This document shows positions 2,194-33,376 of a stretch of DNA of 64,000 nucleotides, piece after piece. Each line of letters begins with the position of its first letter. Position 1 is the first letter of the stretch. Below the pieces are notes generated by a model. It made no database searches. It saw only the letters and a list, made by a program, of their open reading frames with translations, and had not been told where the DNA came from. A program made the translations under genes and the position numbers. This DNA comes from Trichuris trichiura (Eukaryota; Nematoda; Enoplea; Trichinellida; Trichuridae): contig JBAJFE010000062.1 in the NCBI GenBank assembly GCA_037903355.1, forward strand, positions 1,922,001-1,986,000. The letters run 5' to 3'.

Positions 2194-2221
2194 AGTAAAC
2201 CTGTTGTTTAAATGTTGACAC
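2194..2221 (+). promoter_or_regulatory. SL RNA proximal sequence element (PSE-like box)
   Basis: The box reads GTAAACCTGTTGTTTAAATG from 2195. Its first G lies 63 nt before the leader start at 2258. Related boxes precede all ten SL RNA genes at 61-63 nt, measured from the same G. This is the position of the snRNA-type PSE that drives SL RNA and U snRNA genes in nematodes. Assignment as a PSE is inference from position and recurrence. Confidence 0.75.
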
Positions 2222-2257
2222 GATATGTTATAAAAAAAAGTGAAATACCATTTATTT

Positions 2258-2350
2258 GGTTATTTACCCACTTAGAAAGGTAAATAGAATAACTATGCTG
2301 ACTGCATAGATTAAATTTTTGAAAATGAGAGTTGAGGTGACTCGCTCTCT
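2258..2350 (+). ncRNA. Spliced-leader RNA gene 1
   Basis: An SL RNA donates a short 5' exon to many mRNAs by trans-splicing. The leader is 2258-2279 (22 nt; starts GGTTATTTACCCAC, ends TTAGAAAG), followed directly by the splice donor GTAAATAG. Hairpin 1 pairs TTTACC in the leader with GGTAAA at the donor. Hairpin 2 is CTATG/CATAG (2293-2311). An Sm-like site AAATTTTTGAAAA follows (2313-2326), and hairpin 3 is GAGAG/CTCTC (2327-2349). This order (leader and donor in stem 1, stem 2, Sm site, stem 3) is that of nematode SL RNAs, and the leader start resembles C. elegans SL1 (GGTTTAATTACCC). The PSE-like box is at 2194-2221. It could be a pseudogene copy, but every element is intact. Confidence 0.92.
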
Positions 2351-3299
2351 GATGTTCATTAAAGAAAAGTAGTTTTAAGGTTATTAATAATTTATGTTGT
2401 TGCGAAAATGTGGTTTTACTTCACATTATAATCCCGGCAGTAGTATGTAGGGATTTTACCGAGTTCTTTTGAAGGCCGTTTGCGCAGTTTGCCGGCTATA
2501 CCTTGGCCAATCATTAGTGCATAGCCATGTTAGATGTGCGCAACATGCGCGGTAAACATTTAGTAAGAATTGAACGGTTTAACAGGCCTACGCCCTTTGG
2601 AACGACAATCGCACACATGAAACTAAAAATGCAAAAACTTTGAACGCAACAACGGCTTCTGTAAGTATGATAACTTTTTGCGATAGAAAAGACGCTTTAC
2701 AAAAAGCAGTACGTACGGCAGAGACACTACCTTGCAGAAGAAAATATTCATTCAATAGAGACAGTTTCTTCATTCATCAAGTTGTACCTTCGTTAGTGAG
2801 GCAGTTCATTCATAAACATGACTTTATTTTCGGTGGTCTGTCGGTCCGCATCTTCTGTTCACCATTCGTTTTTCGTTCTTCTCATTTCGTCTTCATCTAC
2901 TGCGCGCATTGCGTTGAATGAATATTTCACACATAAGTCCTCATCATTGTTATACACCTCGTTACATTATTGTCTCGAAGGTGAGTAAAAAAAATTTCGT
3001 ATTACTAAGAATTTAATCAACTAAGGTAATCTGAATCTGGTCGCTGTACTTTAGTAACCGGCAATTAGTGTTTAAAAGTAATAAAAAGAGAAGAAAGGAA
3101 ACTTTCTACGCAAAACAAAAGTGACCCATTCAGCAGAGCAAAAGCAATGTACGGGATGACTTATTGATATCAGTTATCCTTACAGGTGAATAATCCTTCT
3201 AATTCATTCCACTTTCTATCACCCTTATTCAATATCTTACTTGCGCGAGTCATTGATGCATTTGTATCTCTTTCAATTCGTTCACAGTAAACGCATATA

Positions 3300-3381
3300 C
3301 GACGAGGGTGAGATTCGAACTCACGCGGGGAAACCCCAATGGATTAGCAGTCCATCGCCTTAACCGCTCGGCCACCTCGTC
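3300..3381 (-). tRNA. tRNA-Ser(GCT), copy 1
   Basis: This is an 82-nt type II tRNA on the minus strand, counting discriminator G at 3300. The acceptor stem is GACGAGG/CCTCGTC. The anticodon loop CTGCTAA sits in stem ATGGA/TCCAT and gives anticodon GCT, which reads AGC/AGU serine codons. The long variable arm typical of serine tRNAs pairs GGGG with CCCC, and the T loop is TTCGAAT. The D arm has GAGCGG. The gene lies at the edge of a 711-bp duplicated block. Confidence 0.97.
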
Positions 3382-3928
3382 TCGAATGCATCCTTCAGAT
3401 ATGAAGTCCTACAAACATTGTGTGCTATGTAGGAGTCCCATGTTCCCCTATCTCGCCCATATCCCCTATAGCCAAAAAATTAATATTTTCATAGAAAGAA
3501 AGAATATCCCTGTACCATAACCGTAAAACTTCACTTTGTGAATCTCAGTTGTTCTTGTCAAGCACAAATAAAGTAAGAAAGTTTCAAAAAGTTAGAAAGT
3601 CTCAAAAAGTTTCTTTAAAAAACTGGAAGTTTCAGGTCAACGTCGATCCGCGATCAACATACAGTGAAAACTTAATACGATGAGACATTCATTCTCAGCT
3701 ATTTATGTTCATTATAGACGCGATGACTGGTCATGTCTGCGATGACCATACAGCTGGGTTTTAAATAAACTTTTTGCTGTTTAATTTGAAAATCTCAACA
3801 TTAAATAAATACAAATTAAATGAATAAAAAATTTTGAGTCGCAAAATCATTTGTGATCAGCAGTTTCAATGTATTCATACTACCATTGCCTTCACTTAAA
3901 AATAAGTTTACTACTGGCATTATTTAGT

Positions 3929-4010
3929 CGACGAGGGTGAGATTCGAACTCACGCGGGGAAACCCCAATGGATTAGCAGTCCATCGCCTTAACCACTCGG
4001 CCACCTCGTC
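3929..4010 (-). tRNA. tRNA-Ser(GCT), copy 2
   Basis: Same as copy 1 except that the D arm reads GAGTGG instead of GAGCGG. It is the second tRNA of duplicated block A. Confidence 0.97.
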
Positions 4011-4781
4011 ATGAATCCGGCTGCTTTCTTTTCAGTTTCTCGTCTTACTGCCGCGAACTTTAATTACGCGATCTGTCTACTCATATACAATGAAGTTATT
4101 TAAGGTAAGTTCCTTCTCTAAGACATTTGTTGTGGGTTGTTTAACTAGACAGTTTTTCAAAATGTCTGAATCAATGACTCCTACATTCTAGCCTAGTTTT
4201 CACAAATGGATAATCTGCCTACCTGCTAACCCGCTAACTAAGAAATGTTTATCTACGATTGCAGAGTAATGTAACGCTGCAGCTGGGCTCTACAGTTAGT
4301 TTCGGACGATATGAATTGATTGCTTTTCTAAAAATGAGTATTAACGGTTCTGAAACGATGCTCAGTTTTTATTTTCTTTTATCAGGTGCAAAATGAGCTC
4401 TTTAGTGCTGCCTTATTCCTTCCAATTTTTTATTGTAACAGTATTACTAAGCTTTCTTGATATATTAATAGCCGATGTAGTAAATTTTAATTAATAACTG
4501 AGAGGCAATCAGTTGGAACAGAACTCCATGGGATCTGTAATTCCAACTCATTGCTGTTGTTATTTATTCTTTGAAATGCAGGACTTTATTTGCGGAAAAT
4601 TCGGCTAGATATTCGATCGTCATCAAATTTCTAACGGGATTTTTCCGTAAAAAAAAATCTTGCATTTCATGAAAGTTTACAGTCCCGTAAGGTAGTTAAG
4701 GTTTACAGTCCTGCTTTCAAAATTTGCTTTTCTTTCTTTGCCTCTGTTTTTAAGAAAAAAATGCAAGTATTAATGTTCAGT

Positions 4782-4863
4782 CGACGAGGGTGAGATTCGA
4801 ACTCACGCGGGGAAACCCCAATGGATTAGCAGTCCATCGCCTTAACCACTCGGCCACCTCGTC
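4782..4863 (-). tRNA. tRNA-Ser(GCT), copy 3
   Basis: Intact 82-nt gene with GAGTGG in the D arm and anticodon GCT. An A-run at 4754-4761, downstream in transcription direction, would give a T-run terminator for RNA polymerase III. Confidence 0.97.
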
Positions 4864-6000
4864 ATGATTGATTTGAGCCATTAAACGTTTCATGAACTAT
4901 TTAAAGTCATTAGCGACAGTAAACGCCATTGTCAACGTTAGTCACTTTTCCCAGGCATAGCTACGTTTTCCCTTTCAGCAAAGGAATTACATGTGTTCAG
5001 CCACGTTTTACAGATAGCCTCGATCCTTCTTAGGAAATGTCATTCTGTTATTCTCTCTTCCCAAATATGGTATCCTGGAATATGAATAACTACTGTCATT
5101 TCTAGCGATATAAACTTTCTATCACGAAAACACGCATCAAAGGTTTATCCAACCTAGTATACAGAGGAGAAACGATCAAAGTCAACAAAACGATGTGTTC
5201 TCAATGATAACTGCTTTGTAACGCCTGCCTTTTGTCTAAGGTTCTGTTCTCCTCGATGAGTAGCGCCTGCTGCTAAAACAACCATTCTAACTTCTATAAC
5301 TTGTAGAGACTATTCGCACCCTGTAATCTCCGGAAAAACTATAGAATGAACAATGTTAATGGTGACTGAGAACGCTTACATTGTTATTGATTAGTTGTTT
5401 AACATGTTTTCCGCTTTTGGCCTAACTGTGCCATACATCAAAAAAACATCCCCCTTTGTTGACTGTTTTACGAGCTGCATATGCATACGTAAATTAGAAG
5501 ACGTGCGATTTGTAAGGTTTCATTCACGTCCTTTGTTGCTCCATAATATGAAGCATTTGCTGCAATGTTTCCTGCTCAAGACAACTTGCCAGTTGAAGAT
5601 ACCGCTAGAAGCATAAATTCGTCATACTTTGTGTAATCAACTGGGATGGATTTAAGACTGGTATTTAATTGTGTATATTCCTTCAATACTTGAGCCCATA
5701 TATGTATGCCTATTCCACGGGAATCACTCTACTTTGCCACGGAAGTTAGCTTTACGAAACTCAATTAACCTATAAGGAATGGAATTTAGACCACTAGCAA
5801 CTTGTCTGAAAGGAAGGAAAAGGAAGGAGCATGTTGGAAAGACTAAAGAATTTCGCAATGAGGTACGTTCCCTTATCTGTCACTTACAGATACATGTTTG
5901 TGAGATGAGAAACAGATATGTAATGATCCCCCGCAACGTCTTTATCTTGTTCAGTGAATAATGATGACCACTGATAATAATACATTTAATGTCTTAAGCT

Positions 6001-6035
6001 TTCAGGGTTGTTCATGTCACTTCGTCAGCGGGCAA
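6001..6035 (-). ncRNA. Hammerhead-like core, CTGACGA variant
   Basis: The minus strand reads CCCGCTGACGA, then about 18 nt, then CTGAAAGCTTAA. This keeps the hammerhead strand CTGANGA (N7 is free) and the GAAAGCT segment, but stem II pairing is weak. Only one orientation is present here. It may be a degraded relative of the foldback elements. Confidence 0.4.
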
Positions 6036-6467
6036 ATGTAGGATTAGTTTTTTTGTAAAAATGTGGAATGTAGAATATTTCTTGCATTTATCCTCTGACC
6101 ACAGGACATCTGAATGCTTTAGAAGTTAGATTTTTTTCAGCGGTTGTCGGTCAGCTGGAAGAGACCTAATTCCCCTGAGCTATGATACCTTTTCAGTAGC
6201 ATTGCTAAGGAAATTACACCCTGCATCTTTCGAAAAGCTGCTGTGCACTAATTAGACTAGAAAGCATGAAACGGCACTAAGCGAGTACAACTTCATTTCA
6301 GTAACGATTTTCTTTGGGCCAGAAGGAACGCATATAACTTCTTACGTATCATTGTTTTTGTGTCTTAGAAGGGTCAACGAAATATAGATTTACTGTTACC
6401 TATTGGAAATGTCGCTTCTTGGTGCGGAACTGTACGTTTTCACGTTGAAGTATTTCTTTTTCACGGA

Positions 6468-6645: not shown

Positions 6646-6759
6646 GCGTTACGTGTTTTTTTCATTGTTCCTCTTTTTCTTCTTCCACTTCGTAACAGAA
6701 TTTTTTGATTTTCTTTTTGTTTTGAAAAAACTTTCTTTACGGTATTATTCCGCTTTTGT

Positions 6760-6997: not shown

Positions 6998-7057
6998 CAG
7001 AAACTGGTCAAAGAAAATTTTTTCAGAAACAAAAACCGCTAACTATTATCATAAATC

Positions 7058-7147
7058 AGAGAGTGAGTTACCCCAACTCTCATTTCCAAAAATTTTACTA
7101 TGCTATATGCATAGTTAATATTTACCTTTGCAAATGGGTAAATAACC
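7058..7147 (-). ncRNA. Spliced-leader RNA gene 2
   Basis: The leader is 7147 down to 7126 (22 nt; GGTTATTTACCCATTT, ending GCAAAG) and is followed by donor GTAAATATT. Hairpin 2 ACTATGC/GCATAGT is perfect. The Sm site is AAATTTTTGG and hairpin 3 is GAGAGTT/AACTC...CTCTC. The upstream box on the minus strand is 7211-7184 (GTAAACCTTTCG, then TTTAAATGCTGCC). All parts are intact. Confidence 0.93.
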
Positions 7148-7183: not shown

Positions 7184-7211
7184 GGCAGCATTTAAACGAA
7201 AGGTTTACTTA
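7184..7211 (-). promoter_or_regulatory. PSE-like box of SL RNA gene 2
   Basis: On the minus strand it begins GTAAACC 61 nt before the leader start and ends TTTAAATGCTG, the clearest match to the box of gene 1. Confidence 0.75.
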
Positions 7212-7214
7212 CGT

Positions 7215-9215
7215 CATTTTACAAAGGACTACACTTAACGGCTACGTAAAATTTATTTGCTTTGGTGTACATATATCTGCTCACTTAGCGAGTTATTCAT
7301 ATTCAACTTAGTGCTTTATAAAGACAATTTAAGACAGAAATTTTCCTCTGACCAGGAAATAACAGAACAAATGGCTACATGTGGAACAGTTGAGTGAAGA
7401 TAAGAAAAACTTTAAACTGAGTTTAAAAGTTATGAAACGCGTAGTTTGGTGTCTTTATTATTTCCATTGAAATACCTTTAAAGTTGTTCGTTGAATATGG
7501 GACCTGAGAAGTCGTTACACCTACATAAATGGCACTGTTGATTTCGCCAATGCTAAAGCATCGTTATGAAGAACCGCACTAAGTGTTTTCTGCTCTAACA
7601 TTCTAAGAGCGCTCTTTGCGACCTAAATAACACTGATGTCGTATCATCCTCAAATTTCATAATTTTATAGAGGACAAACCGTGATTCATTTTTAAATTTT
7701 GACAACCCTTTCAGGTCGGGACAGCTTTTGTCATGTGTGTGAAATGTATGAATAAAGGGGAAGGCTTTCTTAATCTAATGAAGCGCCACTAAAGAGGAAA
7801 CAGTTGCAAGTTTCTGTTCAAAATAGATGCTGGCGATTGACGCGGAGCAAGATTACAAATTCAAACAAGAATATTGCATATCCCATAGCCTAGACGAGTG
7901 GTACAAAATAAAGCGAACAAGAAGTCTCTTGGTTTCCTTTATTCCTAGTACAATCCTGCTTTTTTCATCAACTCTTTACTCTGTTCTTGAAAACGGGATG
8001 CTTCTTAAAGGGTCTGAAAGTCTTTATGATGGAACTTTTATACAGTTTTGTCTTGCCCGTTTTTGGCTTCTGAGATGGCTAAAGCGAACGCTCTACCAAC
8101 GAATAGATGAGCATTTATTAAGGAAAGTTCAGAACAATGTTATACGTTCACAGCTTCTGGGACAAACCTCTTCCAGCCTTCAGCAATGATGGTTGTGTAA
8201 GCTTCACCCTGAATATAGGTCATTTAAAGGCTGCGGAGGTGCGTCAGTCGTCATGAAACAACATCCTGTTTTACTGGTAAGGGCTGTCCATATCGAGCTG
8301 ACCTCCACGCCCTGGTCACGGTTAACGAAAATGATCCTCTTTGCTCTTTGCTTTTTGCCTCACCTTTTTCTCTCTTTACAGTGTACACTGCAACCTAGTG
8401 TTTCTTGATACATTGCGAAGAAACCCGGATCAAGAAAAATTATTGGGCTATAAAAAGAAAAATATGAAATCGCAAGATCTTTTGTTTTGTATTCCTGTTA
8501 CATTCTTATTATCAGAATAAAGCTGCGTTATGTACTTTTTTCATGATTTAAGGCGAAGGCAATGGATTCGAATTACACCTGATTCTGTCATCAGCCTCTG
8601 ATTAAAACACTGACAAAAGGACTAGATGCATTCTGAAAGCTTAGCCATAACTATAATAAATAAAGTGGGCGTTTGGTGAATTAGTGGTGAAAGTGCATGC
8701 ATCTGTTGTACGGCATTCCATATATTATTGCACTCCTATTATCATTTTTATTCTTGAACTCGCCTGTATCGATCAGCAAAATGTTTTTTTAAGCAGACAA
8801 CCTCTCCATCATTTCACTGTGGCAGTTAACACGGTTAGAGTAATTTTTTCATCTTTAAAACACCTTACGTCGCGGTGGACCAATTTTATTCATTTTAAAG
8901 AATTAAGGATTTTTCAGGGTGTTGCTAATCCTGTCGTCAGCCCCCTGGTCAAAATGCTGACGATGGGATCAACTGTATTATGAAAGCCTTGTAATACTTG
9001 ATAATAAACAAAACAGCTTAAACAGGATGTTTTGAACCTAAAAACTTATGCGTTTATCTCAAGATAGCCAATATACAGTTGGCACCTGTTACGTATTGTC
9101 GCAGCTGATACTGGCGACGAGATTAATTGAGAGGGTAAGGATGCTTTGATCAGCTCTCAAAACAAAATATTAATAGACTACACACAGACTACGAACATTT
9201 TTCTCCAAGTAGAAC
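7215..9215. other. Intergenic, no supported gene
   Basis: A 120-codon ORF at 7827-8189 (+) has no recognisable motif and no splice or family support. Two stretches (8570-8640 and 8900-8990) carry inverted CTGTCATCAG / CTGACGATGG-type segments followed by GAAAGC. These look like very decayed members of the CTGACGA foldback family. Confidence 0.5.
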
Positions 9216-9217
9216 AC

Positions 9218-9305
9218 AGAGAGTTAGCGTAACTCTCATTTCCAAAAATTTCGGCTATGCGGAATACATAGCTATGTATTTACCTCTTCAAATGGGCAAA
9301 TAACC
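9218..9305 (-). ncRNA. Spliced-leader RNA gene 3
   Basis: The leader is 9305 down to 9284 (GGTTATTTGCCCATTT, ending GAAGAG), followed by GTAAATAC. It has TTTGCCC where most copies have TTTACCC. Hairpin 3 GAGAGTTA/TAACTCTC and the Sm site AAATTTTTGG are good. Hairpin 2 is weaker than in other copies, and the upstream box (9367-9341) is the most diverged, although its spacing of 62 nt is kept. It may be a low-activity or decaying copy. Confidence 0.8.
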
Positions 9306-10833
9306 AAAGGTGACACTGTTCAATCTTCCTAAGTCTAAAAGCAACAGCGCGGAAACAGCAGGTTCACGTTTTTTATGAACTGTACTGATTAGGCACCGTT
9401 GGGCGTTGGAGATAGCAATTTTTGACAAATGTACAGACGCTATTCAGACGCTGCCATCTGCTTTTGCGGTGCTCTCTGAGGCGACTGCGACTTCGGCTGG
9501 GGTTTTAGTTAGGCAATTTAAAGAACAAATTTTAAGGCGGGAGTGATCAGATAGAAATTTATGTCTATCAAAAAATAATATCACCCGCTATGGCAATTCA
9601 TACCTTTCTTGAAGATAGATATATGAGCACTGTAACGAAACAAGATTTACTAAAGCAGGTTTGCTAAGTTCCTCCGTTGTTTATTCACCTGTGAAAAGGA
9701 TACCATTAAAAAGCTAATGTGATTATACAGGTCACGCTACGCATGTATTAGCATATGATATACGTAGAACAGCATCAAATTGTCTTCCAGTTTAATAATC
9801 AGTCAGTCACAATGAGATCCTTCACATAGGATGGAGCTTTCAGCGTCTGTGTACTGGGACTCATGGATTACTCTCAAATGCAGATCTACAACTGCTTGCA
9901 AAACTCAATTCAGACCTGTAACCCTAAAAATAAAGTCATTTCACTCTGGGAAATTTCAGGGGTCGCTAGAAGCTAAGGGTAATATTGGATGACGCTGCGA
10001 CGTCTGTTGCTTGTTCAATGAACCAGTCTCATCAGCCGGAACCACTGATGTTGATGTAACGTGAAAGTGAGACGAAGTGTTGTTTTCTTAAGTTTCGCAG
10101 TTGCGATTGTCATGTATTAACAGAAAATAGAGACTTCAATAGCAACCCAATTAGCCTAATGGTGCCTGCACAATATCTTTCCCAAGGAAATACAGACTGA
10201 CTGTTAACTGTTGGATACTGACTTTTATTTTGAATAGTGGGTCAGACAATCAGCTATTTCCAAATATGGAAAGTTTAATCAATCACCGTTTACACAAGAA
10301 TGACCTAAGTATGTTAATGATCCGCTAATGATAAAAGCGCTAAAAAGAGAAAGGAAAATAAAATTTTAAAATAGCAAAAATATTAATAAGATTTATATAC
10401 CAGATCTTCGGATTCACGGGTTTAGCCTGTTGGATGTATCTGTAAGTAAACTTCAAAATGCCCTACTTAAAAGGCATCCTGTCTTTCAAAAAATTTATAT
10501 ACCGGAAAAAAAGAATTATAATGACATGTTTACCGATTCAGAATGCTCTCATAGGAGATTCCTTTAAATTCGTTGGCACCACGCAGTAAGGCCATAGGCG
10601 CATGCCACGTAAAAGCAATGAAGTTCTGAACTCTCAAACTCTTATTTTTAAGCACCTATCAAGGTCATGCCTTGGGTGAATGGAACAGCGAATGTCCCAT
10701 AAAGAGACTGTAAGTTGTCAGTTCATTCTTGACAGCAAAATTTATAACAAATGGCCGCCTACAACAATGAAGTAAACCTGTTATCTCAGGGAAGCTACTA
10801 ACACATATGACAGAATCAAACGTTGTTATCGTT

Positions 10834-10921
10834 GGTTTATTTACCCGTTCGAAGGTAAATATTATCTACGCTTTAAGCGTAGTAAAAATTTTTGGGAATT
10901 GGAGTTAGGTGTACTAACTCT
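10834..10921 (+). ncRNA. Spliced-leader RNA gene 4
   Basis: The leader is 10834-10854 (21 nt; GGTTTATTTACCCG, ending TTCGAAG), followed by GTAAATATT. Hairpin 2 is CTACGC/GCGTAG, a compensated change from the CTATGC/GCATAG of other copies, so the stem is under selection as RNA. The Sm site AAATTTTTGGG and hairpin 3 GAGTTA/TAACTC are present. The upstream box at 10770-10797 starts GTAAACCTGTTAT. Confidence 0.92.
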
Positions 10922-11519
10922 GTAAAAATTTGTCTATTCCATGAGATGATAATGTAGTAGTCTTGCTTTGATCGCTGTACAGCCCATGTGACAGCAGTGA
11001 GGTCTGTCACACAAACATATATTAGAATGTCATTGGAAAGTCTCAAAGACCCGGAATGGCGTTTTCGCTACGTAAGTTGCAACTGAGATCAAACAGGTCC
11101 TTGCGCAAAATAAAAACGGTTTCCTGCCTTCTCTATGTTCAGAAATAGTACTCCTTCTTCGGGGAAGGATAAATCCTCATCCCAGTCACCAGAAAAATGG
11201 GCTCATGAGCTGCCTTGTAAAGTGTATCTATATACTTTCCATCGCTAGCCACCAATACAGTGCCAGAAAAAATTTCTTTGAAAAGTTTGCATTGCGTGTA
11301 CGTGCATGTACGTTTTAAGAAGTCCGTCGCACAAGTACATCTGCAGCTTTCAACAGTTCCTTGTAGGAGTGTCACACGGCAACACTACATTTATTCTTCA
11401 GTATTGTCTCACTTTCTCACCTACCTAATACTTCAATAGGCGTCAGAAACAACCTCAGTTCTTCATTCAGGAATGACTAATATTTTAACAATTCCTTATA
11501 CTATCTAGAGGCATATATT

Positions 11520-11601
11520 CGACGAGGGTGAGATTCGAACTCACGCGGGGAAACCCCAATGGATTAGCAGTCCATCGCCTTAACCGCTCGGCCACCTCGT
11601 C
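11520..11601 (-). tRNA. tRNA-Ser(GCT), copy 4
   Basis: Intact gene with GAGCGG in the D arm. It is the counterpart of copy 1 in duplicated block B. Confidence 0.97.
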
Positions 11602-12148
11602 TCGAATGCATCCTTCAGATATGAAGTCCTACAAACATTGTGTGCTATGTAGGAGTCCCATGCTCCCCTATTTCGCCCATATCCCCTATAGCCAAAAAAT
11701 TAATATTTTCATAGAAAGAAAGAATATCCCTGTACCATAACCGTAAAACTTCACTTTGTGAATCTCAGTTGTTCTTGTCAAGCACAAATAAAGTAAGAAA
11801 GTTTCAAAAAGTTAGAAAGGCTCAAAAAGTTTCTTTAAGAAACTGGAAGTTTCAGGTCAACGTCGGTCCGCGATCAACATACGGTGAAAACTTAATACGA
11901 TGAGACATTCATTCTCAGCTATTTATGTTCATTATACACGCGATGACTGGTCATGTCTACGATGAACATAAAGCTGGGTTTTAAATAAACTTTTTGCTGT
12001 TTAATTGGAAAATCTCATCATTAAATAAATACAAATTAATTGAATAAAAAATTTTGAGTCGCAAAATCATTTGTGATCAGCAGTTACAATGTATTCATAC
12101 TAGCATTGCCTTCACTTAAAAATAAGTTTACTACTGGCATTATTTAGT

Positions 12149-12230
12149 CGACGAGGGTGAGATTCGAACTCACGCGGGGAAACCCCAATGGATTAGCAGT
12201 CCATCGCCTTAACCACTCGGCCACCTCGTC
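12149..12230 (-). tRNA. tRNA-Ser(GCT), copy 5
   Basis: Intact gene with GAGTGG in the D arm. It is the counterpart of copy 2. Confidence 0.97.
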
Positions 12231-12446
12231 ACGTGTGGTTTCTTCGTTTAAAGGGATTATGAAAACGTCGTTCGTTATTACGACTCTTATTCCATTTCGA
12301 CCAACAACATCTGAAAACTTATAAATGCTTTTATAAAATGGAGAAATGTTCTTCTAGTCAAAAAGAAATAATTTTTATCATAGTACTGGACTGGTAAAGA
12401 CTGGGTTTGTGATAAGATTTATTATTGTCAAGGTTCTTTTACGGAA

Positions 12447-12680
12447 AGTTGTCCCGTTGATAATATTTTTATTATTCCGGAGCTTTCGGGTCAAACGAGA
12501 CCCGTCTTCAGCGGTGTCAAAATAAAGCAATGACGTAACGAATTTTCACGGTGTTAAATGATGTAATGGGTGTTGCGTGGGGATGTTTTAACTTCATTTT
12601 AACACCGCTGAAGACGGGTCTCGTTTGACCCAAAAGCTCCGGAATAATAAAAATATTATCAACGGGACAACTTTCCGTAA
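12447..12680. mobile_element. Hammerhead foldback element, near-perfect arms
   Basis: Arms of about 78 bp (12447-12524 and 12603-12680) are nearly perfect inverted copies. The minus arm carries an intact hammerhead: stem I CCG/CGG, CTGAAGA, stem II GGGTC/GACCC, GAAA, AGCT. In the plus arm the GAAA has become AAAA (loss of G12), which predicts an inactive ribozyme on that strand. To the right, ATGAAAC...ACGGTCCCGTACCAAGAA (12695-12720) matches the end of the Penelope-like element (CCCGTACCAAGAA). No ORF. Confidence 0.75.
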
Positions 12681-12866
12681 AAGAACCTCGACATGAAACT
12701 ATACGGTCCCGTACCAAGAAGTTACATTTACAAAAAGATTTATTATTGTTATTTTTGAAAATATGGCTTTGTGGTACGGGACTGTAGGTTATCATGATTA
12801 ATTTGTTTGTTCCTACGGAATAACAAAGTAACAAACGGGGCACATATTCCATAAGAAGAAGCAAAC

Positions 12867-12948
<82 letters not shown>
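12867..12948. repeat. (TTA)n microsatellite
   Basis: About 27 uninterrupted trinucleotide units. Confidence 0.98.
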
Positions 12949-13486
12949 GAGTATTAACTCGTAGGACTCTGCAACAGTTCGTTAACTCAAAAGCTCTAGT
13001 TTTTGCCTCTCAAACGAGGCACTGTGCTTACTGAGCCTGCAGGACGGCGATAAAATGTTTCCTCTAACCCTAGTTAATTCCCTTGCTTCTTCCCCGTTTT
13101 TAGCAAGCTGTCTGTGGAGTTCAATTTGTCGATGTACTGAAAAAGTACAACTTAAAACACTGTTAGCAATGCAGCCTAGCAGAGAAATAATCGATGACAT
13201 GGACATTGCACACGCTTAAAGCTAATGGTAGCACAGCGGCTTTTCAAAACGGTAAGCTATTCTCTGCAAGGATTAACGTTTTGCCAAGAAATGTTCATTA
13301 AACCACCAGGTAAAAAGTATACTGAAAAATGCTATGCATGTCACAGACGAAGCATGCTAACAACATTTGAAAACGTAACTTCATGGCAAGAGACAAGAGA
13401 CCACTTCATGTGCTATGTCAAGCTGTTCCTAAGGAATGTGTGCTGTTGAAACAAGCACGAAAACTTTTAATTTCTGTCCATAACTT

Positions 13487-13522
13487 TCAGGTCTTTTCAT
13501 AAACCGTCTTCAGCGGTGAAAT
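13487..13522 (-). ncRNA. Single hammerhead-like half element
   Basis: The minus strand reads CACCGCTGAAGACGG..., with ACCTGAAAG at the far end. Only one orientation remains, without a partner arm, so this is a truncated relic. Confidence 0.4.
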
Positions 13523-13756
13523 ATTTCATTTCCTTGGTATAGCCATTATAGTATAGGAGATGGCAATAATGGGCGAAATTCAGGATGTTTTTAAGTACTA
13601 TTTCAAGTGCACAGTAAATAAAAGCTACATTATGATGCACTATCCAACCTGTTACAAAGTTCCACCTGCTCAAAGTACGTATGAATAATTCCGCGTAAGT
13701 ATGACCACAACATTTCACGTGTTAGAAAAAGTTATCATACTTTACATAACAGAACT

Positions 13757-13838
13757 CGACGAGGGTGAGATTCGAACTCACGCGGGGAAACCCCAATGGA
13801 TTAGCAGTCCATCGCCTTAACCGCTCGGCCACCTCGTC
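13757..13838 (-). tRNA. tRNA-Ser(GCT), copy 6
   Basis: Intact gene with GAGCGG in the D arm. Flanks are unrelated to the duplicated blocks. Confidence 0.97.
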
Positions 13839-14413
13839 TTGAACAAAACTCTTTAGAACTGGGATCGCAGAGATGAAGCCCTGAACAGTTCTGATTCAGT
13901 TGACTTATGCGCGAAAACTAATAGGTGGCCGTAGTAAAACCAAACTTATCAGTTGTCATGCTTTCAATTTAATTGCATTATATGGCTGATAACGAGGACC
14001 GTCAATGTACCTTTATGAAGGTTGACAGCGCTGGAATGCATTAAAGTTAGTGAAATAATTACAAGAAAATCAGCATAGCGGCAGCAGCATAAGGCGCCTA
14101 TCGCTGCGGGCGCATCTATGAAGTAAGTTAACAATGCGCCCATATTCATATTCCATGGAAAATCATTGAAGCCATTAAAATTAAACTATTTCCCGCATGT
14201 TTGACGACAACTTTGTTAAACTAAACTAACATTACTTCAATTGCTTTTCACTGTCTGTAGGCCAAGGGAGCTTTATAAAATAATTTTTAAATATTCAAAT
14301 ATCAGTCAAAGCATCTTAATCAATACTTTGCATCTTTTTTTTGCTGCCTGAGAAAAATTGCTTCAACACTTGACTTACTACTGAGAAACTTAAACGAGTT
14401 CAGTCAAAACAAT

Positions 14414-14486
14414 TGCCTCGAGCCGGGATCGAACCAGCGACATTTAGATCTTCAGTCTAACGCTCTCCCTACTGAGCTATCGAGGC
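14414..14486 (-). tRNA. tRNA-Phe(GAA), copy 1
   Basis: A 73-nt gene including discriminator A at 14414. The acceptor stem is GCCTCGA/TCGAGGC. The anticodon loop CTGAAGA in stem TTAGA/TCTAA gives GAA, and the T loop is TTCGATC. Identical in sequence to the copy at 35,341-35,413. Confidence 0.97.
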
Positions 14487-16514: not shown

Positions 16515-16831
16515 AACCTTCGAAGCACTGCTTATTGGCAAGTGAAAGTAAACGCTTTGTACTCTTCCGTAATATAAAACGCACTATTATTTGAGTGGGT
16601 TTTCAGGGCAACTTGTACCTCTCACGTCTGCGTCGAATTATTAATTGTTGTTTAATCAACACGCTCATGATAAGAGCGCTGTTCGCTTAAAAGCTAGACA
16701 ACTAAAAGAATTAAAAATTGAGTAGATGAACCTTTGGAAAAGAACGCCTAAGAAAGCTATACGTCTAATTGACTATAAAGAAATAATTTTACGTAAACAT
16801 AACAGTAACACACGTACACTTCGCAAATTTC

Positions 16832-16921
16832 GGAGAGTGAATACCTCACTCTCTTTCCCAAAAATTTATTGCTACGATTAGCACGTAGCTTCTATTTACC
16901 TTTTCGCAAGGGTAAATAACC
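16832..16921 (-). ncRNA. Spliced-leader RNA gene 5
   Basis: The leader is 16921 down to 16900 (GGTTATTTACCCTT, ending GCGAAAAG), followed by GTAAATAG. Hairpin 2 is GCTACG/CGTAGC. The Sm site region reads AATAAATTTTTGGG, and hairpin 3 is GAGAGTGAG/CTCACTCTC. The upstream box is 16985-16960, beginning GTAAACCTGTGG. Confidence 0.9.
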
Positions 16922-16989
16922 GAAGCAGGGTACGATAAATTCGACTATATTTCAACCCAGCAGCCTTTAAACCACAGGTTTACTCAGGT

Positions 16990-18595: not shown

Positions 18596-18661
18596 GTCAA
18601 GTAAACCCGCTATTTTAGAGATGCTATTATTGCATATGACAGAATCAAACGGCTTCCTCAT

Positions 18662-18752
18662 CAGTGTATCTACTCTTGCGAAGGTAAATGATAGCCTATG
18701 CATTACGCATAGTGAAAATTTTTGAAAATGGGAGTTGAGGCAACTCGCTCTC
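18662..18752 (+). ncRNA. Spliced-leader RNA gene 6, divergent leader
   Basis: Hairpin 2 (CTATGC/GCATAG), the Sm site (AAATTTTTGAAAA), hairpin 3 (GGAGTTG...CTCTC) and the donor GTAAATGAT at 18684 are standard. The leader itself is not: it reads GTATCTACTC...GCGAAG and lacks the GGTTATTTACCC start. The box GTAAACCCG begins at 18601, so the start falls at 18662-18664, giving a leader of 20-22 nt. Either a functional, highly variant SL or a copy whose leader has decayed. Trichinella is known to use non-canonical, polymorphic SLs. Confidence 0.75.
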
Positions 18753-19800
18753 TAATAGTTGTTTGGTTATTCAAAAGCTTCAACACATTCACTCCAAACA
18801 GAGGTACACAATAACTTCAATCTAAAGCAGGGATTTTCATGGTGATGCGAGTGCCACAAAGGGCGGCGTTTTAGAAATCCAAGAGGATATAAATGGCAAG
18901 AGAGTCACTTAGACAGGCACTTTTTAACTGAGAGAAGCGTATGCCACACTTGAATTATCTTGCTAAACTGCATAGCAAGATATAGTCTGCTGGTCAGGTA
19001 TTGTAAGCATTGCATAAGAGAAAGTTGCATCCTATGGGTGCATTCAGACTTTGAAAGCCGACTTCGCCGGTCCGTCTGCTCTACCGCATTAATCAGTCAG
19101 TGCCCGCGAAAATGACCAATCAGAACAACCTTATGCCGAAACAAGTTCCTGAAATAAACTTGTGCACTTCTGTCCTTGCATCTGACTATCCCCCTAGACC
19201 GATGATCCAGCCAGTCAGCGCGTTCGAAATTGACCAATCAGAATAAGGATCCAGGTTCTCCGAAACGTCAACAGGGGGCGCTAGCAACCTTGAGCTCGAG
19301 AAACACTGCTCTAAAGCTCCAATCCTCATTGTCTAGAAATAACAGTTTTGCGCTAACATAACCTATCAACCGTTAGTAGTTGGTCGCACAGGTCCAAAAG
19401 CCCACCAAAAAGGAGATATGACGCTTTCAAAACAAAACCCACTTCTGGTTTTAGGAAGAGCAGAGCGTTACCTTTAACAATATAATCTAAAAAATGAAAT
19501 GAAGCGCTGTATCATTAGACGTTCACGACATGTGTCATTTAGTGGAGTAATTTTAATATTGAATGCAATCCTTACGCGTATATCTCATGGTAATTGCGCA
19601 GATGTCCTAAGAATTACTTCCTGAGACCAGATACGCGCTTACTAACATTCGTTTGAAAGGCCACGCATACATAGAACAGTATTATTTTTTATTCAAACAT
19701 ACTTTCCGGCTCATTAAATACGATAACTTCGTCACTAACATGCTCTACCTATTGTACACAAATCACTGATATGTAAAAATCCTTAAACGTAATGTGTAAG
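18753..19800. other. Intergenic with a CCAAT-type repeat pair
   Basis: Two related segments near 19,090 and 19,210 each read CAGTCAG.GC followed about 15 bp later by TGACCAATCAGAA. This part is more GC-rich than its surroundings. No gene was found to go with it. Confidence 0.4.
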
Positions 19801-19805: not shown

Positions 19806-19885
19806 ATTGAGGGTGAGATTCGAACTCACGCAAGAAAACCCAATAGATTAGCGATTCGCCAGCTTGACCGCTCAGCCACCTGGTC
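19806..19885 (-). pseudogene. tRNA-Ser pseudogene
   Basis: The T arm (GTGAGTTCGAATCTCAC) is intact, and the D arm is recognisable (TGGCTGAGCGGTCAAG). The acceptor stem no longer pairs well (GACCAGG against CCTCAAT), the anticodon stem is broken and the variable arm is changed. It derives from the tRNA-Ser(GCT) family of this cluster. Confidence 0.85.
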
Positions 19886-21098
19886 ACACGAGTTCCCATA
19901 TATCAAAGAACACAGAATAAAGCTCCCTGAAAAATCTACGTAGTAGACTGCTGAGCTTTACCTATCCACAGCTGTTTAATTATATACGATAGAATTAAAA
20001 CGAGACAGCGTTTTTTTAGAGACAGTCGATACGAAGAATACAAGCAGAAAAATCTGAAGCTTCTAAGCCATCCGTTCCAACGTTTTAGTCTGTTTTTTGT
20101 TAATCAACAATGGAGCTACCAGCAGATCAGAACTTCTTTTCCTGCAATTACACAATCGCACAGTATTGTAAATGCGCTCAGAAAACACTTCAAAAAGGCA
20201 CGAAGTGTTTTGAAAATGTCGTAGTTTTAAAGGACGTATAAAACGTTGTAATTTTTCCATAGGGGGCGCAGCTATTTTATTGGACTTCAACCTATTCACG
20301 ATCACAAACTATTGGGAATTTCCGCACATCCAAGATGGCAGCCCATTCGTCATTCCCACCTTTGCAGATGTCAGCCCACTCCAGACCCTTAGCCACTTAG
20401 AATTTCAGCTTTATCAGATTTCAACCAATTCAAACCTTCAACTCATTCAGTATTTACAGCAGATTACGATTGTGAAGTCACCAATTTCCATCATTCAGAC
20501 CTTAATAACTGTGTGGTATCACGGCTCACTCAGATAGCGACCTTGAAAAGCACGATACGCTTTGACAACCCGACCTATACAACTTTGCTCAAAATTCGCC
20601 ATTTCAACAATTCGGGATGTCAGCCTATCTAACCTTTCGATTCATATCGTATCGATCTGTGTGTTTATCATGGAAAGATTACAAAGCATTTATTTGCACT
20701 TACTAATGAACGGATCCTTCGAAGGACAGTTTATTGGTAAGTGAAAACAACCGCTTTGTACCTCTCCGTAAAAAAGGGGCTCATGAAACATACCGTTTTA
20801 ACAATAAAAAGTCTTCAGTTTTCGATTACATATCGTATTGAGGACAATTCAAGTGCCTATTCGGAATCCAAAAGTGCACACGAACCCATAGCAATGAACG
20901 TCGATTGTAGGAGAACAACAGAAAACTGAGGCTGAGGGGAAGGAACGTAACTTTAAGCTATTCTACATAGAATAAACGAATGGACGGTGGTCAAGTAGCA
21001 CTGGACAAGTAGTTATCCCCTGACTTTTATGCGAAAAAGTAACCGGTAAATCTGAAAGTGACCTATGCCTACGCGAGCCGTTTCCATAAAGCAGTACC

Positions 21099-21186
21099 AG
21101 AGAGGGAATATGTCCCTCTCAACCACAAAAATTTCTCTATGCTTTATGCATAGTTAAAATTTACCTTATGAGATGGGTAAATTACC
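21099..21186 (-). ncRNA. Spliced-leader RNA gene 7
   Basis: The leader is 21186 down to 21165 (GGTAATTTACCCATCT, ending CATAAG), followed by GTAAATTT. Hairpin 1 is extended (AATTTACC/GGTAAATT). Hairpin 2 is CTATGC/GCATAG, the Sm site is AAATTTTTGTGG, and hairpin 3 GAGAGGGAC/GTCCCTCTC is strong, with its own sequence and kept pairing. The upstream box is 21250-21223. Confidence 0.92.
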
Positions 21187-21714
21187 ATCAATGCCCTCCC
21201 TCCATACTATTTTACGCTACCTCAGCAACATTTAAGCAGCAGGTTTAAATACCTGAATTTAAAACAGTTCATCTGAAAGCTGCTTTAAGCATGCTCAGTT
21301 TTAAGTATAGAAATGCACTTAATTCATACTGATTATTACGTTATAGAGAATGCAGCGTTCTGTCACAAACAAGCAAATTTTTTTATATTCATACTTTTAC
21401 GGAAACCCGACCACCCAGCTTCCGTAGAGATTTATTTCCACTTTCGAAACATTCTCGGTCTGGCCTGTCTGTTATAGGCGCATAATGATAAGACCACAGA
21501 CGCATTAGGTAAAGAACGTACTGAAGAGCGGTGGCAGGAAGATGAGAAGAAGCTTCCGTTTCATCTACAATAAAGCAAAGATTAAGCATAATAAATACAA
21601 ATAAGATGGCCTTTTTTCTTTTCTTTCTTAACGAGCGTTTGTAAACTTCTTCTAAAAACTTTTTTATGGTGGAACCCTTCTCTTGAAACAACAATTATTG
21701 ATATAAAAGTACTT

Positions 21715-27851: not shown

Positions 27852-27917
27852 CTTCCAACTTTATGCTACGTCGGTAACCATAGGTTTACCCAAGCGGTTT
27901 CTAAAGAAATGACAGAA

Positions 27918-28006
27918 TGTGAGTCACTTGAACCCTCGATTACAGAAATTTCAACTGTGCGGCATGCACACACGTTTTATTTACCTTCAGACTTGGGTAA
28001 ATAACC
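27918..28006 (-). ncRNA. Spliced-leader RNA gene 8, SL1-like leader
   Basis: The leader is 28006 down to 27985 (GGTTATTTACCCAAGTC, ending TGAAG), the closest in the window to canonical SL1 (which has ACCCAAGTTTGAG), followed by GTAAATAA. The upstream box at 28069-28043 has the standard spacing of 62 nt. The body is atypical: hairpin 2 is TGTGC/GCACA, the Sm-like site is AAATTTCTG rather than AATTTTTG, and hairpin 3 is weak. Either a distinct SL class or a copy losing its Sm site. Confidence 0.7.
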
Positions 28007-28659
28007 ATAAGAGATTTTGGTAAGTCATATTTTATGCACTGGAAGCAGCCTGCGAAAAACAGGCTCACTTGCTCCTATACAGTTTTGCTACTGGAGGTCC
28101 CACTCTTATGAGTGATCAAGCTACCGCATTTCTTCCACGTAAAAAGAGCAACGCACGTCCACTAAATACAGATAAAGTAGTGCAGCATTTCACTACTTTT
28201 GTGTGCTTGATGTGGTCACTTTCTACTTTTTTGTGCAGATTGTTCTCAGCAAATCCTGTTCAGGGTGTACATCATACTGACCGTTCACATGAAGCATTGG
28301 GGCTACAGTTTTTATTTGCTTGGTTGCGTGAATTTTTGCTCAAATGTATTGAACAGTTTTAAACGTTGGCAGACTTTGCTGGGAAGCTAGCCGGTCTCTG
28401 AAGCAGGTATCTTAACTTGAACGCAGAAAATTCCGCGATCACGTGAGCAGAGTCGAGGCAGAAACCGGAAGTCCTCACACTGCAACGCCATTTTAAAACA
28501 AGGATGGAAACAGAATTAACGATGAGTACGCGAAAGTGGCAGTGCAGCCAAACGGTACGTAATACATGAGCAGCTGGCATCTTGTTTAAAGTGAGAAAGC
28601 ATAAAAGTTACTGATATGCATACTTTAAGAATTGAGTTTCAACCAAGAATTGAAGAATT

Positions 28660-28986: not shown

Positions 28987-28989
28987 ATG

Positions 28990-29880: not shown

Positions 29881-29948
29881 TAAATATTAAACCTTTCGTT
29901 CCTGTGGTGCTGTTAAAGCACAAGAAAAATCATACGCTTTTACCATCT

Positions 29949-30037
29949 GATTATCCACCTGAACAAAGGTAAATAATATCTATGCGTGGTGCATAGTAAA
30001 ATTTTTTGAAAATGAGAGTTGGGGTAACTCACTCTCT
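29949..30037 (+). ncRNA. Spliced-leader RNA gene 9, divergent leader
   Basis: Spacing from the upstream box (TTAAACCTTTCG, 29887) puts the start at about 29949. The leader is then GATTATCCACC...ACAAAG (about 20 nt), lacking the initial GGTTATTTACCC and able to form only a shorter hairpin 1 with the donor GTAAATAAT. Hairpin 2 (CTATGC/GCATAG), the Sm site (ATTTTTTGAAAA) and hairpin 3 (GAGAGTT...CTCTC) are intact. Confidence 0.75.
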
Positions 30038-30734
30038 ATTTTATTTTAAAGAGCGGAACCTGAGGGTGAGGTTACTATGAACAAATTCAGAATTTCATTT
30101 GCACCTGCGCCTTCTTAATCGCTAATCGATTATGGTCATTTTATACCGGCTGTTCAAACATCGTTTCCGAATTATTCCTGAACCATCATAAGCGTATAAC
30201 GAAGATCAGCAAGGTTTGAAATCTACTTTGAGTAGAACTTGCATATTCGACTAGCCAGAGAAACCGTACAGAGAAAGCAAACAATCTCAGTTGAGCAAAA
30301 GGCTGCACCCAGAGCCCTGCAGGTGAAGTCCAGTTTGTTATTGTTACCGAGAATAGTTGACAGACGTTTCCCGTAGTAGTGACTGTGTGCTCCATATACC
30401 TATAGTAAGAATTACACGCTGTCATAAACTGCCAATTACGAGTAATTGCTGGGAAATTACATAAGCAAGGGAAAAGAAGACCTGATGAGATCATCGAAAG
30501 AAGTAAGAAAGAAAGCGCCTAAGCTCATACGATATTCATACGCCTGGCTTAACTACTGAATAATCTATACGGCAGAAAAAGAGCTCCTGTTTTCAGCAAC
30601 CATTTGGGAAAAAGTGCCCCTATGGCAAACTTTCTCACTTTCGACATCTCAACATGCATCTGTATCAACCTTAGCTTTTTAAGCATAGACCGCTGATACT
30701 TAACAATTCTTTGTCCTACATAAAAGCATGTATT

Positions 30735-30816
30735 CGACGAGGGTGAGATTCGAACTCACGCGGGGAAACCCCAATGGATTAGCAGTCCATCGCCTTAACC
30801 ACTCGGCCACCTCGTC
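30735..30816 (-). tRNA. tRNA-Ser(GCT), copy 7
   Basis: Intact gene with GAGTGG in the D arm. Confidence 0.97.
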
Positions 30817-31666
30817 ATGAATGGCTTGCGTTTAATGCAGAATGCTGAAAATATGAAAATGACAACTCCCGCTAAATGCGTATTTTACTCTACTGAGCTT
30901 GGCGAAAGTTGACTTTTGCAGAAATACTGTAAGAGATAATATGGACATTCCAGTAGAAAATAACAAGATTTCTATAAGCAAATAAAAGCAACAACTTTTA
31001 TTATCAGTCCATTTATAATTCAATGCATTAAGTGGCAATATGCTACAAGTGTTCCTAATTCCATGATGCCACTAATGGTTTGCGGCCGCTCAAACGGAGT
31101 GCTGCAAGCATTAACGATTCTAAGGAGTGCTTCCAAACATCGTTAATGACGGAGCAAGAGTTATCCCGAAGCGTGTAACACCATTTTATTGTACTTTCTT
31201 TGACAATGGGCTCATTTGTAAGCTGGTAAGCCATTTTGGAGTTTACGTACGAACATTTAAGACAACAGGACAAAACCGTGACTGACGATCAACATGAAAA
31301 TAACATATCCTACGAATACGAAATAGTCAGCAATTCCTCACACTCTTCACTCAGTCTGCATTTGGGAAACAGAGGTGTTCCTGCTTCTGAATAAGAATGT
31401 TTATACTTGCTCTTTTCACAAGCTACCATTTCCAGACATAATGGCGCAACGCGTATCGCGTACGTTAAAAACGAAGACTTGTATAGGATAGAAAACAAGC
31501 GAGGTAGCCAAAGATAAGCTCTTCGGATCACAGTCTTCACAGAATAATTTACGTCTAGTATTGTAAGTCTGAAAGGTAGCATACATGGACTAGGACAGTA
31601 TAAAACAAGGACAGCCGGAAAAGCACCCAGTTCTATGTTTATCGCAATGCTGAAAACAGCACTCTC

Positions 31667-31748
31667 GACGAGGTGGCCGAGTGGTTAAGGCGATGGACTG
31701 CTAATCCATTGGGGTTTCCCCGCGTGAGTTCGAATCTCACCCTCGTCG
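31667..31748 (+). tRNA. tRNA-Ser(GCT), copy 8 (plus strand)
   Basis: The only tRNA-Ser of the window on the + strand. Identical body with GAGTGG in the D arm, discriminator G at 31748. Confidence 0.97.
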
Positions 31749-31760
31749 AATAAATATTTC

Positions 31761-31816
31761 CCCTCTTCACCGAATGCTCCAACCGTCCAAATGGTTGGAA
31801 CCTCCTTTGAAGAGGG
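31761..31816 (+). other. Stem-loop downstream of tRNA-Ser copy 8
   Basis: CCCTCTTCA pairs with TTGAAGAGGG around an inner hairpin TCCAACC/GGTTGGA. It starts 12 nt after the tRNA. It could be a 3' trailer structure or a short inverted repeat; no T-run terminator lies between. Confidence 0.4.
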
Positions 31817-32171
31817 AAGTACGAAGACAAAAAGACCAGTTAAAATCAAAGTTTTCAGTATTTGTCGACTACATATTTACATGCAATTTCAAAGGAAGCC
31901 ACTAACCTCTGCGTGCGTCTGTTTAGCTGAAAATTGATGTTGGAGTACCAATTACGTTTGAAAGCAAAGTGAGCAACGAAAACTGCCTTTTTTGGCACTG
32001 CTCTTGCCCGCTACTTAGGTACTTTTGAAAACTGCAATAGTCTTCTTACGGAATGAGTCTGAATAGTACATATGCATATTGCAAACTACATCAAGAAGGG
32101 ATTGAAACACTACCCCAATAAAAGAAAGTACAAAATAAAATATTTCATAATGAATTGACTTTAATTACGGA

Positions 32172-32310
32172 GTTCAAGTCCCGTCGAAGAAACGTTTATT
32201 TCTCCGGAGCTTTCGGGTCGAAGCAGACCGCTGAAGACCGGTCTCGTTCGACCCAAAAGTTCAGGAGAAATAAACGTTTTTTCGACGGGACTTGGACTCC
32301 GTAATTAAAG
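32172..32310. mobile_element. Collapsed hammerhead foldback element
   Basis: Arms meet almost without a spacer: GTCCCGTCGAAGAAACG...CTCCGGAGCTTTCGGGTCG, then CCGCTGAAGACCGGTC...CGACCC, then a diverged AAAAGTTCAGGAG and CGACGGGACTTGGAC. One core strand (CTGAAGA) remains, and G12 and AGCT are lost on the plus side. ATTGTCCCGTACCAA at 32,331-32,345 is the element's terminal motif. Deletion of the spacer probably inactivated it. Confidence 0.65.
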
Positions 32311-33287
32311 TCAATTCATTATGAAAAATTATTGTCCCGTACCAATCCAATATGTTCAAAATAAATATTTCGCTTTACTGACATGATCTTAGATCCATAG
32401 CCTTATTCCTCCCGAATGATTTCCTATAGGAAACACAACGGAATGACAGGGAAAATTGTTAATTATTATTAGCGGTTTGCGCCAGAACGTTAAGGCTGCA
32501 GAGACCTTTGTTAATCATATTTATCTGGATGAAAAACTGCGTCACTTAGTTCAATTTTTACTTCAACATGACCGTCTTATGTTTGGTTCACTTGGGATTG
32601 GCTCATTCTACGATACAGAACATCGTTAAGAGAACTGCATGAAATGCTATATGCTTGTTTCATTCGGTATGTTATTCTATCATTGACAAAATTTAAGTCG
32701 CGCAACATCCATCATTCACCATTGGAAGAGCCGTCACCATGAATGGAGTGCTCAAGTGTCTCACACAGATAAAGAATTAAATGCAACAGAATACTTCTGC
32801 TGTTTTCCTTTGATGGATTTTTCCGCGGAGCTGCATGAGGTTTCCATGAAAAAATAGATTAGATTTTAATGGAATGTTTCGAATTGCAACCTGAAATCAT
32901 TTTGCGCTTAAGTCAACAACCGTCACTCCACCATTCCTCTAGTCACCTCCCTATTTATTTTTTGAGTACAGTTTCATGGCATCAGAAAGGATTCAGCGGA
33001 GTGGTACATTAATATCCCAGAGCACAGCATACGTAGAACTTTTAATATTACTTTTATCATTTTTAACAGGTAACAAACATGAAAAATATCGTTCAACGCG
33101 GGTTGGCAAAGGCGCTGACGCTGATAAAACTTATGTCCGCAAATGAAGATCTTCATGAAGGGAAAGAAAAACTTAAAATTATGGTTATGAATGAATATTA
33201 CCATATGGGGCAAAACAGAACTTCCTGAACCTAATAGTCAAATGCTGCGAACTTATTATAAAAAAAGAATCAAAAATTAATTGTTTT

Positions 33288-33376
33288 GGTTGTTTACCCT
33301 TAGAGTAGGTAAATAACAACTATGCGTTGGGCATAGTTTAATTTTTGAAAGTGAGAGCTGGGGAAAGCCGCTCTCT
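33288..33376 (+). ncRNA. Spliced-leader RNA gene 10
   Basis: The leader is 33288-33308 (21 nt; GGTTGTTTACCCTT, ending GAGTAG), followed by GTAAATAAC. Hairpin 2 is CTATGC/GCATAG, the Sm site is TAATTTTTGAAAG, and hairpin 3 is GAGAGC/GCTCTC with its own compensated changes. The upstream box at 33225-33251 (CTGAACCTAATAG) is diverged but correctly spaced at 63 nt. Confidence 0.9.

Follow-up and report, generated by a model that had tools for sequence, protein, structure and literature searches.

Does a seemingly gene-free stretch of whipworm DNA hold a hidden cluster of spliced-leader (SL) RNA genes, and is that cluster organised as in Caenorhabditis elegans? The stretch in question, hereafter the window, comprises 64,000 nucleotides of Trichuris trichiura contig JBAJFE010000062.1 (C26; positions 1,922,001–1,986,000) in an assembly of 72.7 Mb. 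An earlier note on this DNA had proposed ten SL RNA loci within it, sharing a leader, a GTAAAT donor, three hairpins, an Sm site and an upstream box. In C. elegans, SL1 RNA pairs its leader with the splice donor, forms three stems and carries an Sm site, and the whipworm genes resemble it in all three respects. We are highly confident that the ten loci are T. trichiura SL RNA genes encoding leaders for trans-splicing, and that they belong to a cluster of at least 14 genes, with two members that may be decaying. The observations are of four kinds: the sequences, a conserved structure with compensatory changes, a common promoter box and the genomic layout.

Anatomy of the ten loci

All ten loci were recovered at the coordinates and on the strands first assigned to them (Table 1), five on the plus and five on the minus strand. 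Each comprises a leader of 20–22 nt ending in AG, a GTAAAT donor and, downstream of the donor, stem II, an Sm-like site and stem III. The Sm-like site reads AATTTTTG in eight loci, AATTTTTTG at 29949+ and, in altered form, AAATTTCTG at 28006-. The shared motifs of the earlier note, including the box, were present in every locus, although the leaders are not as uniform as it implied: those of 18662+ and 29949+ deviate. Adjacent genes lie 1.5–6.8 kb apart and form no simple tandem array.

The donor alone would carry little weight, as the window contains 66 copies of GTAAAT, within chance expectation (shuffle mean 54.7; 5 of 100 shuffles reach 66). It is the combination of motifs that, unlike GTAAAT alone, exceeds chance. 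Model R1, a covariance model trained on the ten window genes and hence circular when applied to the window, gave strong matches to these ten only (77.8–108.1 bits; next match 19.6). A second model (R2), built from seven SL genes outside the window and therefore a held-out, non-circular test, returned exactly the same ten at 44.4–87.0 bits, the next match (19.6 bits) lying antisense over one of them. Both models begin their match to 18662+ at 18664.

Conserved structure

The stems carry compensatory changes. Both-side changes occur in 5 of 21 pairs in the alignment of the ten window genes, a count reached by 1 of 500 shuffles, and in 7 of 18 pairs in a MAFFT alignment of the 21 distinct SL genes recovered across the genome (below), as in 2 of 500 shuffles. 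Among these 21 genes, 91.7% of cells pair, compared with 32–50% when the structures are slid by 1–3 columns, and compensatory changes are present in all three stems. In stem I, leader arm and donor pair in 141 of 147 cells, with two mismatches in 29949+ and one in 18662+. The outermost stem I pair (leader–donor +6) is the most telling of all: it is A-U in 14 genes, G-U, G-C, C-G and U-A in one each and unpaired in three, covariation matched by 197 of 100,000 shuffles. For that tally, the leader arm was anchored by rule on ACC/GCC/TACT; in the MAFFT alignment the same pair is A-U in 12, G-C in two, G-U in two, C-G in one, U-A in one, unpaired in two and gapped in one.

Folded singly, eight of the ten window genes are more stable than almost every one of their 200 shuffles (z −3.0 to −4.2), with no shuffle folding as well for seven genes and one for 29949+. 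The lowest-energy folds contain the leader–donor stem in six genes, stem II in nine and stem III in nine.

A promoter box in common with U1, U4 and U5 genes

A box of consensus RARCCY begins 59–61 bases before the leader in 21/21 SL genes, including 10/10 in the window (RAACCY in 20, nine of them in the window, and GAGCCT at 28006-), followed by a conserved G 17 and 20 bases past its first base (20/21 and 21/21). Genome searches for small nuclear RNA (snRNA) genes, each scoring 41–48 candidates, matched four U1, four U2 and two U5, one U4 over and one under the cut-off, and one U6 under it. The four U1 genes, the two U5 genes and the U4 over cut-off all have RAACCY at −58 to −60. A matrix built from these seven boxes alone, themselves found via the motif, was scanned across the window in both orientations (~128,000 places) and put the ten SL boxes at ranks 1–7, 9, 10 and 12. 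In C. elegans, the promoter motif of snRNA and SL2 RNA loci has the proximal sequence element (PSE) as its core, and the available text of PMC2527325 argues for polymerase II there; by analogy, the whipworm SL RNA genes are probably also transcribed by polymerase II.

The four U2 genes all carry another common box (GAGAGYG..., with a CTGC end) near the position that RAACCY occupies in U1, U4, U5 and SL genes, which suggests two promoter classes, one for U2 and one for U1, U4, U5 and SL RNA genes. The sole U6 match scored 29.2 of the 44 bits required (48 of 5598 candidates scored), and true U6 genes were probably missed by the search.

Table 1. Features of the window, in window coordinates (R1 and R2, covariance models; matrix, built from U1/U4/U5 boxes; z, fold against shuffles)
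Feature	Position	Strand	Leader	Remarks and evidence
SL RNA gene 2258+	2258..2354	+	GGTTATTTACCCACTTAGAAAG	R1 and R2 match; z −4.2
SL RNA gene 7147-	7054..7147	-	GGTTATTTACCCATTTGCAAAG	R1 and R2 match; z −3.8; lowest-energy fold lacks leader–donor stem
SL RNA gene 9305-	9210..9305	-	GGTTATTTGCCCATTTGAAGAG	R1 and R2 match; fold
SL RNA gene 10834+	10834..10927	+	GGTTTATTTACCCGTTCGAAG	R1 and R2 match; fold
SL RNA gene 16921-	16828..16921	-	GGTTATTTACCCTTGCGAAAAG	R1 and R2 match; fold
SL RNA gene 18662+	18662..18757	+	CAGTGTATCTACTCTTGCGAAG	Diverged leader, weaker stem I, possible pseudogene; R1 and R2 match; z −1.1
SL RNA gene 21186-	21095..21186	-	GGTAATTTACCCATCTCATAAG	R1 and R2 match; z −3.9; lowest-energy fold lacks leader–donor stem
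SL RNA gene 28006-	27910..28006	-	GGTTATTTACCCAAGTCTGAAG	Altered Sm site and stem III, possibly decaying; R1 and R2 match; z −0.3
SL RNA gene 29949+	29949..30041	+	GATTATCCACCTGAACAAAG	Unusual short leader, two stem I mismatches; R1 and R2 match; z −3.2
SL RNA gene 33288+	33288..33380	+	GGTTGTTTACCCTTAGAGTAG	R1 and R2 match; fold
PSE-like promoter box of 2258+	2197..2217	+		snRNA matrix
Promoter box of 7147-	7186..7206	-		snRNA matrix
Promoter box of 9305-	9345..9365	-		snRNA matrix
Promoter box of 10834+	10774..10794	+		snRNA matrix, rank 12
Promoter box of 16921-	16961..16981	-		snRNA matrix
Promoter box of 18662+	18603..18623	+		snRNA matrix
Promoter box of 21186-	21226..21246	-		snRNA matrix
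Promoter box of 28006-	28046..28066	-		Variant GAGCCT; snRNA matrix
Promoter box of 29949+	29889..29909	+		snRNA matrix
Promoter box of 33288+	33227..33247	+		snRNA matrix
tRNA-Ser(GCT)	3300-3381	-		Converges on 2258+
tRNA-Ser(GCT)	3927-4011	-		Converges on 2258+
tRNA-Ser(GCT)	4780-4864	-		Converges on 2258+
Three tRNA-Ser(GCT) and one tRNA-Phe(GAA)	11520..14486	-		Converge on 10834+
Decayed tRNA-Ser-like remnant	19810..19881	-		Converges on 18662+; 22.2 bits (cut-off 29)
tRNA-Ser	30734-30817	-		Downstream of 29949+
tRNA-Ser	31666-31749	+		Downstream of 29949+
tRNA-Ser	34360-34441	-		Converges on 33288+
tRNA-Phe	35340-35414	-		Converges on 33288+

Identity, proposed mechanism and alternative readings

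The held-out model, the compensatory changes, including those between leader and donor, and the U1/U4/U5-type box together bear out the SL RNA identity that the earlier note had drawn from nematode SL RNA architecture. We propose that each gene is transcribed, most likely by polymerase II, with the snRNA-type box at about −60 as its promoter, giving an RNA of ~95 nt. This RNA would adopt three stems, of which stem I joins the leader to the GGTAAAN splice donor of the same molecule. Sm proteins would bind this RNA at AAUUUUUG to form a small nuclear ribonucleoprotein, and the leader (20–24 nt in the 21 genes) would then be trans-spliced onto the 5′ ends of pre-mRNAs. Transcription, capping, Sm binding and trans-splicing are predicted here because of the anatomy of the genes, their promoter and their kinship with T. 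muris.

Several results weigh against this identity, or against its extension to all ten loci. The number of further pair types in the ten window genes alone is ordinary, being reached by 292 of 500 shuffles. Two genes, 18662+ (34 of 200 shuffles as good) and 28006- (70 of 200), fold no better than shuffled sequence, and the leader–donor stem is absent from the lowest-energy folds of 7147-, 18662+, 21186- and 28006-. A scan of the window at Rfam gathering thresholds named tRNAs only, and a scan of positions 1–36000 at E ≤ 10 returned no SL1 or SL2 label (a label of the database rather than a defining trait of SL RNAs), with no Trichuris yardstick for the reach of the Rfam SL1 and SL2 models in this lineage. 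RAACCY is absent upstream of all four U2 genes and of the sub-threshold U4 and U6 matches, and the promoter matrix ranked two places without an SL gene behind them among the SL boxes, at rank 8 (17558-17578, minus strand) and rank 11 (8950-8970, minus strand). On inspection, no snRNA was recognisable behind the 17578- box; these two boxes are chance occurrences, or belong to unknown small RNA genes.

The alternative that fares best accepts the family as SL RNA genes and holds that several window members (18662+, 28006- and perhaps 29949+) are pseudogenes, leaving a functional set of fewer than ten, a reading to which we give somewhat better than even chances. Gene 18662+ has lost both its GGTT start and one stem I pair, in addition to its poor fold, and 28006- combines a changed Sm site with a weakened stem III. 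Trichinella spiralis is a clade I relative. In that species the SLIDR pipeline found 22 of 48 expected SL RNA genes, and the authors suggest that many of the others are possibly non-functional (available text of PMC7986045). Conversely, 18662+, 28006- and 29949+ all keep a correctly spaced promoter box and reach 44–54 bits with the held-out model R2.

Could the loci instead belong to a different group of nematode Sm-class RNAs, for example SmY, which aid trans-splicing without donating a leader? Comparable size, an Sm site and an snRNA-type promoter would suit such RNAs, but a GGTAAA donor after an A, paired with a leader arm, is found in 21/21 genes, SmY has two stems and is described as detectable only in clades III–V (in the available text of PMC11229312), and neither the gathering scan of the window nor the E ≤ 10 scan of positions 1–36000 matched SmY. 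Given the leader arm and donor in every gene and the lack of an Rfam SmY match, we reject this reading as very improbable.

Genome-wide SL gene set

SL RNA genes beyond the window were sought by sequence patterns, and the resulting 21 genes are a lower bound. The pattern AGGTAAATN{18,34}AATTTTTG matched the genome 22 times, against six for its reversed control; R1 recognised 17 of these as SL genes (eight in the window, seven elsewhere and two in a terminal repeat) and five as not. Two more SL genes lie to the left of the window in the neighbouring stretches examined, at ~1,902.6 and ~1,908.4 kb of C26. A leader–donor pattern, TTTACCCN{4,14}GGTAAA, gave 50 matches against 60 for its reversed control; 18 were known SL genes or copies, and 12 of the other 32, picked mostly for an A before GGTAAA, yielded two SL genes (66 and 78 bits) at ~1,656 and ~1,658 kb of C26 and ten sequences at ≤14.6 bits. 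A stem II plus Sm pattern matched 11 times, always in known genes or copies (control 0), and a GTAAAC donor pattern eight times (control 5), of which three were known genes or copies and five had no stem II within the matched strings. Used as a DNA query against the genome, gene 7147- matched at just six sites, every one of them inside the window, indicating that plain similarity is too weak for an inventory. Exact matches to the leader start GGTTATTTACCC numbered ten in the genome against six for the reversed control; six lie inside SL genes, and the three that were read of the four outside them bear no trace of a retrocopied trans-spliced mRNA.

Fourteen of the 21 distinct genes fall between 1,900.0 and 1,955.4 kb of C26, another three are elsewhere on that contig (~1,242, ~1,656 and ~1,658 kb), and contigs C2, C5 and C21 hold two, one and one, respectively. 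The cluster of ten described earlier is therefore correct for the window and too small as a total: at least 14 distinct genes occupy 55 kb, continuing beyond the left edge of the window. All 21 leaders differ from one another, yet each is 20–24 nt long, ends in AG and is followed by GTAAA, the donor GGTAAA being preceded by A in 21/21. The last 24,063 bases of C26 (2003396-2027458) are 100% identical to 1881067-1905129, 122 kb upstream, which an assembly loop or a duplication of very recent date would explain; this terminal repeat holds three further SL gene copies, which were left out of the 21.

Genomic layout

The earlier note described the genes as dispersed on both strands among tRNA genes rather than in tandem with 5S rRNA, and this layout holds. 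The strands carry five genes each, 11 tRNA genes (nine Ser(GCT), two Phe) lie at 3.3–35.4 kb of the window, and C26 has no 5S rRNA match among 47 scored of 2803 candidates, the main 5S tandem series being on contig C9. Sequence outside the window, 60 kb on its left and 41 kb on its right, yielded no tRNA gene. In 5/5 plus-strand SL genes, a tRNA-Ser gene on the opposite strand (the remnant, in the case of 18662+) lies 0.7–1.15 kb past the leader start, and the remnant is 79–81% similar to the tRNA-Ser stretches 3′ of other plus-strand SL genes. We infer that plus-strand members spread as SL/tRNA-Ser units, a pattern not found for the minus-strand genes. A 721-base duplicate (3293-4011 and 11511-12231, 97.6% identical) contains two tRNA-Ser genes.

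Within ±1.5 kb of the ten genes, a one-strand comparison finds similarity between about −95 and +97 and, outside that interval, only in the tRNA stretches, a flank common to 7147- and 9305- and one 88-base out-of-register match; aligned pairs of SL genes are 70–88% identical. Such narrow similarity fits old duplicates kept by selection. The loci might also be read as a mobile repeat with a chance snRNA-like stretch inside it, as their number, dispersal over both strands and nearby segmental duplicates might suggest. We consider this very improbable and reject it because similarity is bounded at both ends (on the strand compared), aligned gene pairs share 70–88% identity and the changes are compensatory.

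Comparison with other nematodes

SL trans-splicing in Trichuris is already known from T. muris; what is new here is the gene inventory, the common promoter and the odd layout. Literature searches of limited, mainly open-access reach listed no paper on T. trichiura SL RNA genes, and a text search for GGTTATTTACCC, with which leaders start, was likewise empty. According to the available text of PMC7986045, T. muris has 13 SLs backed by RNA-Seq, with Tmu-SL1, 4 and 12 called SL2-type, and SLIDR finds 20 SL RNA genes and at least three further SLs. Compared by description, this congener resembles T. trichiura in having many leaders, with one to three genes per leader in T. muris, and in having the Sm site closer to the donor (PMC7986045). 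The same text likens T. muris SLs to those of C. elegans and sets them apart from those of T. spiralis, which has 15 SLs and many SL RNA genes.

The layout differs from that of C. elegans SL1, for which the accessible part of PMC1657053 gives a tandem arrangement of about 110 monomorphic genes with 5S rRNA; the whipworm has 21 genes with 21 leaders and 0/47 scored 5S matches on C26. Without 5S linkage among the scored matches, the C. elegans arrangement is not general. The C. elegans SL2-type genes, 19 dispersed genes with 13 leaders (PMC1657053, same part), resemble the whipworm genes in their dispersal and polymorphic leaders. In a tree of the 21 SL genes, 14 of 18 inner branches are open and one is starred, that of the C2 pair (bootstrap 100, SH-aLRT 99), whose leaders begin GGTTTTTACCC (GGTTTTTACCCTTG leaders), a start that resembles the nematode leader GGTTTTTACCCAGTATCTCAAG as given in the available text of PMC3795323.

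A more speculative proposal divides the set in two. C26 would be a nursery of SL1-type genes, at least 14 ever-different genes in 55 kb arising by duplication of SL/tRNA-Ser units, alongside a few dispersed SL2-type genes serving operons, including the C2 pair with GGTTTTTACCC; leader loops would be free to diversify, with promoter, donor and stems remaining under selection. We consider this rather unlikely, and the tree argues against it, as the dispersed genes form no supported group, only the C2 pair.

For a human parasite, the 21 genes and 21 leaders, a lower bound, provide an SL inventory whose leaders can be used directly to probe for mRNA 5′ ends and operons, and the common box connects SL RNA genes with those for U1, U4 and U5 in a nematode distant from C. 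elegans.

Neighbouring open reading frames

The description of the surrounding DNA as gene-free stands in so far as none of the 9 open reading frames scanned, of 30 of at least 85 aa in positions 1–36000, exceeds a Pfam cut-off; it fails for the 11 tRNA genes. To the right of the cluster, the frame at 39704-39985 (plus strand) has weak RING/PHD-like matches below cut-offs and is perhaps an exon of a protein gene. For the frame at 43574-44323, a protein named for Trichuris trichiura matches with 100% identity across 90% of the frame, and a T. suis protein with 82% identity. Finally, a 784-aa open frame at 57563-59917 (minus strand) matches RVT_1 (29.2 bits, cut-off 29.6) and then GIY-YIG (18.4 bits, cut-off 22.6), an order that, with both matches under cut-off, we take to recall Penelope-type retroelements.

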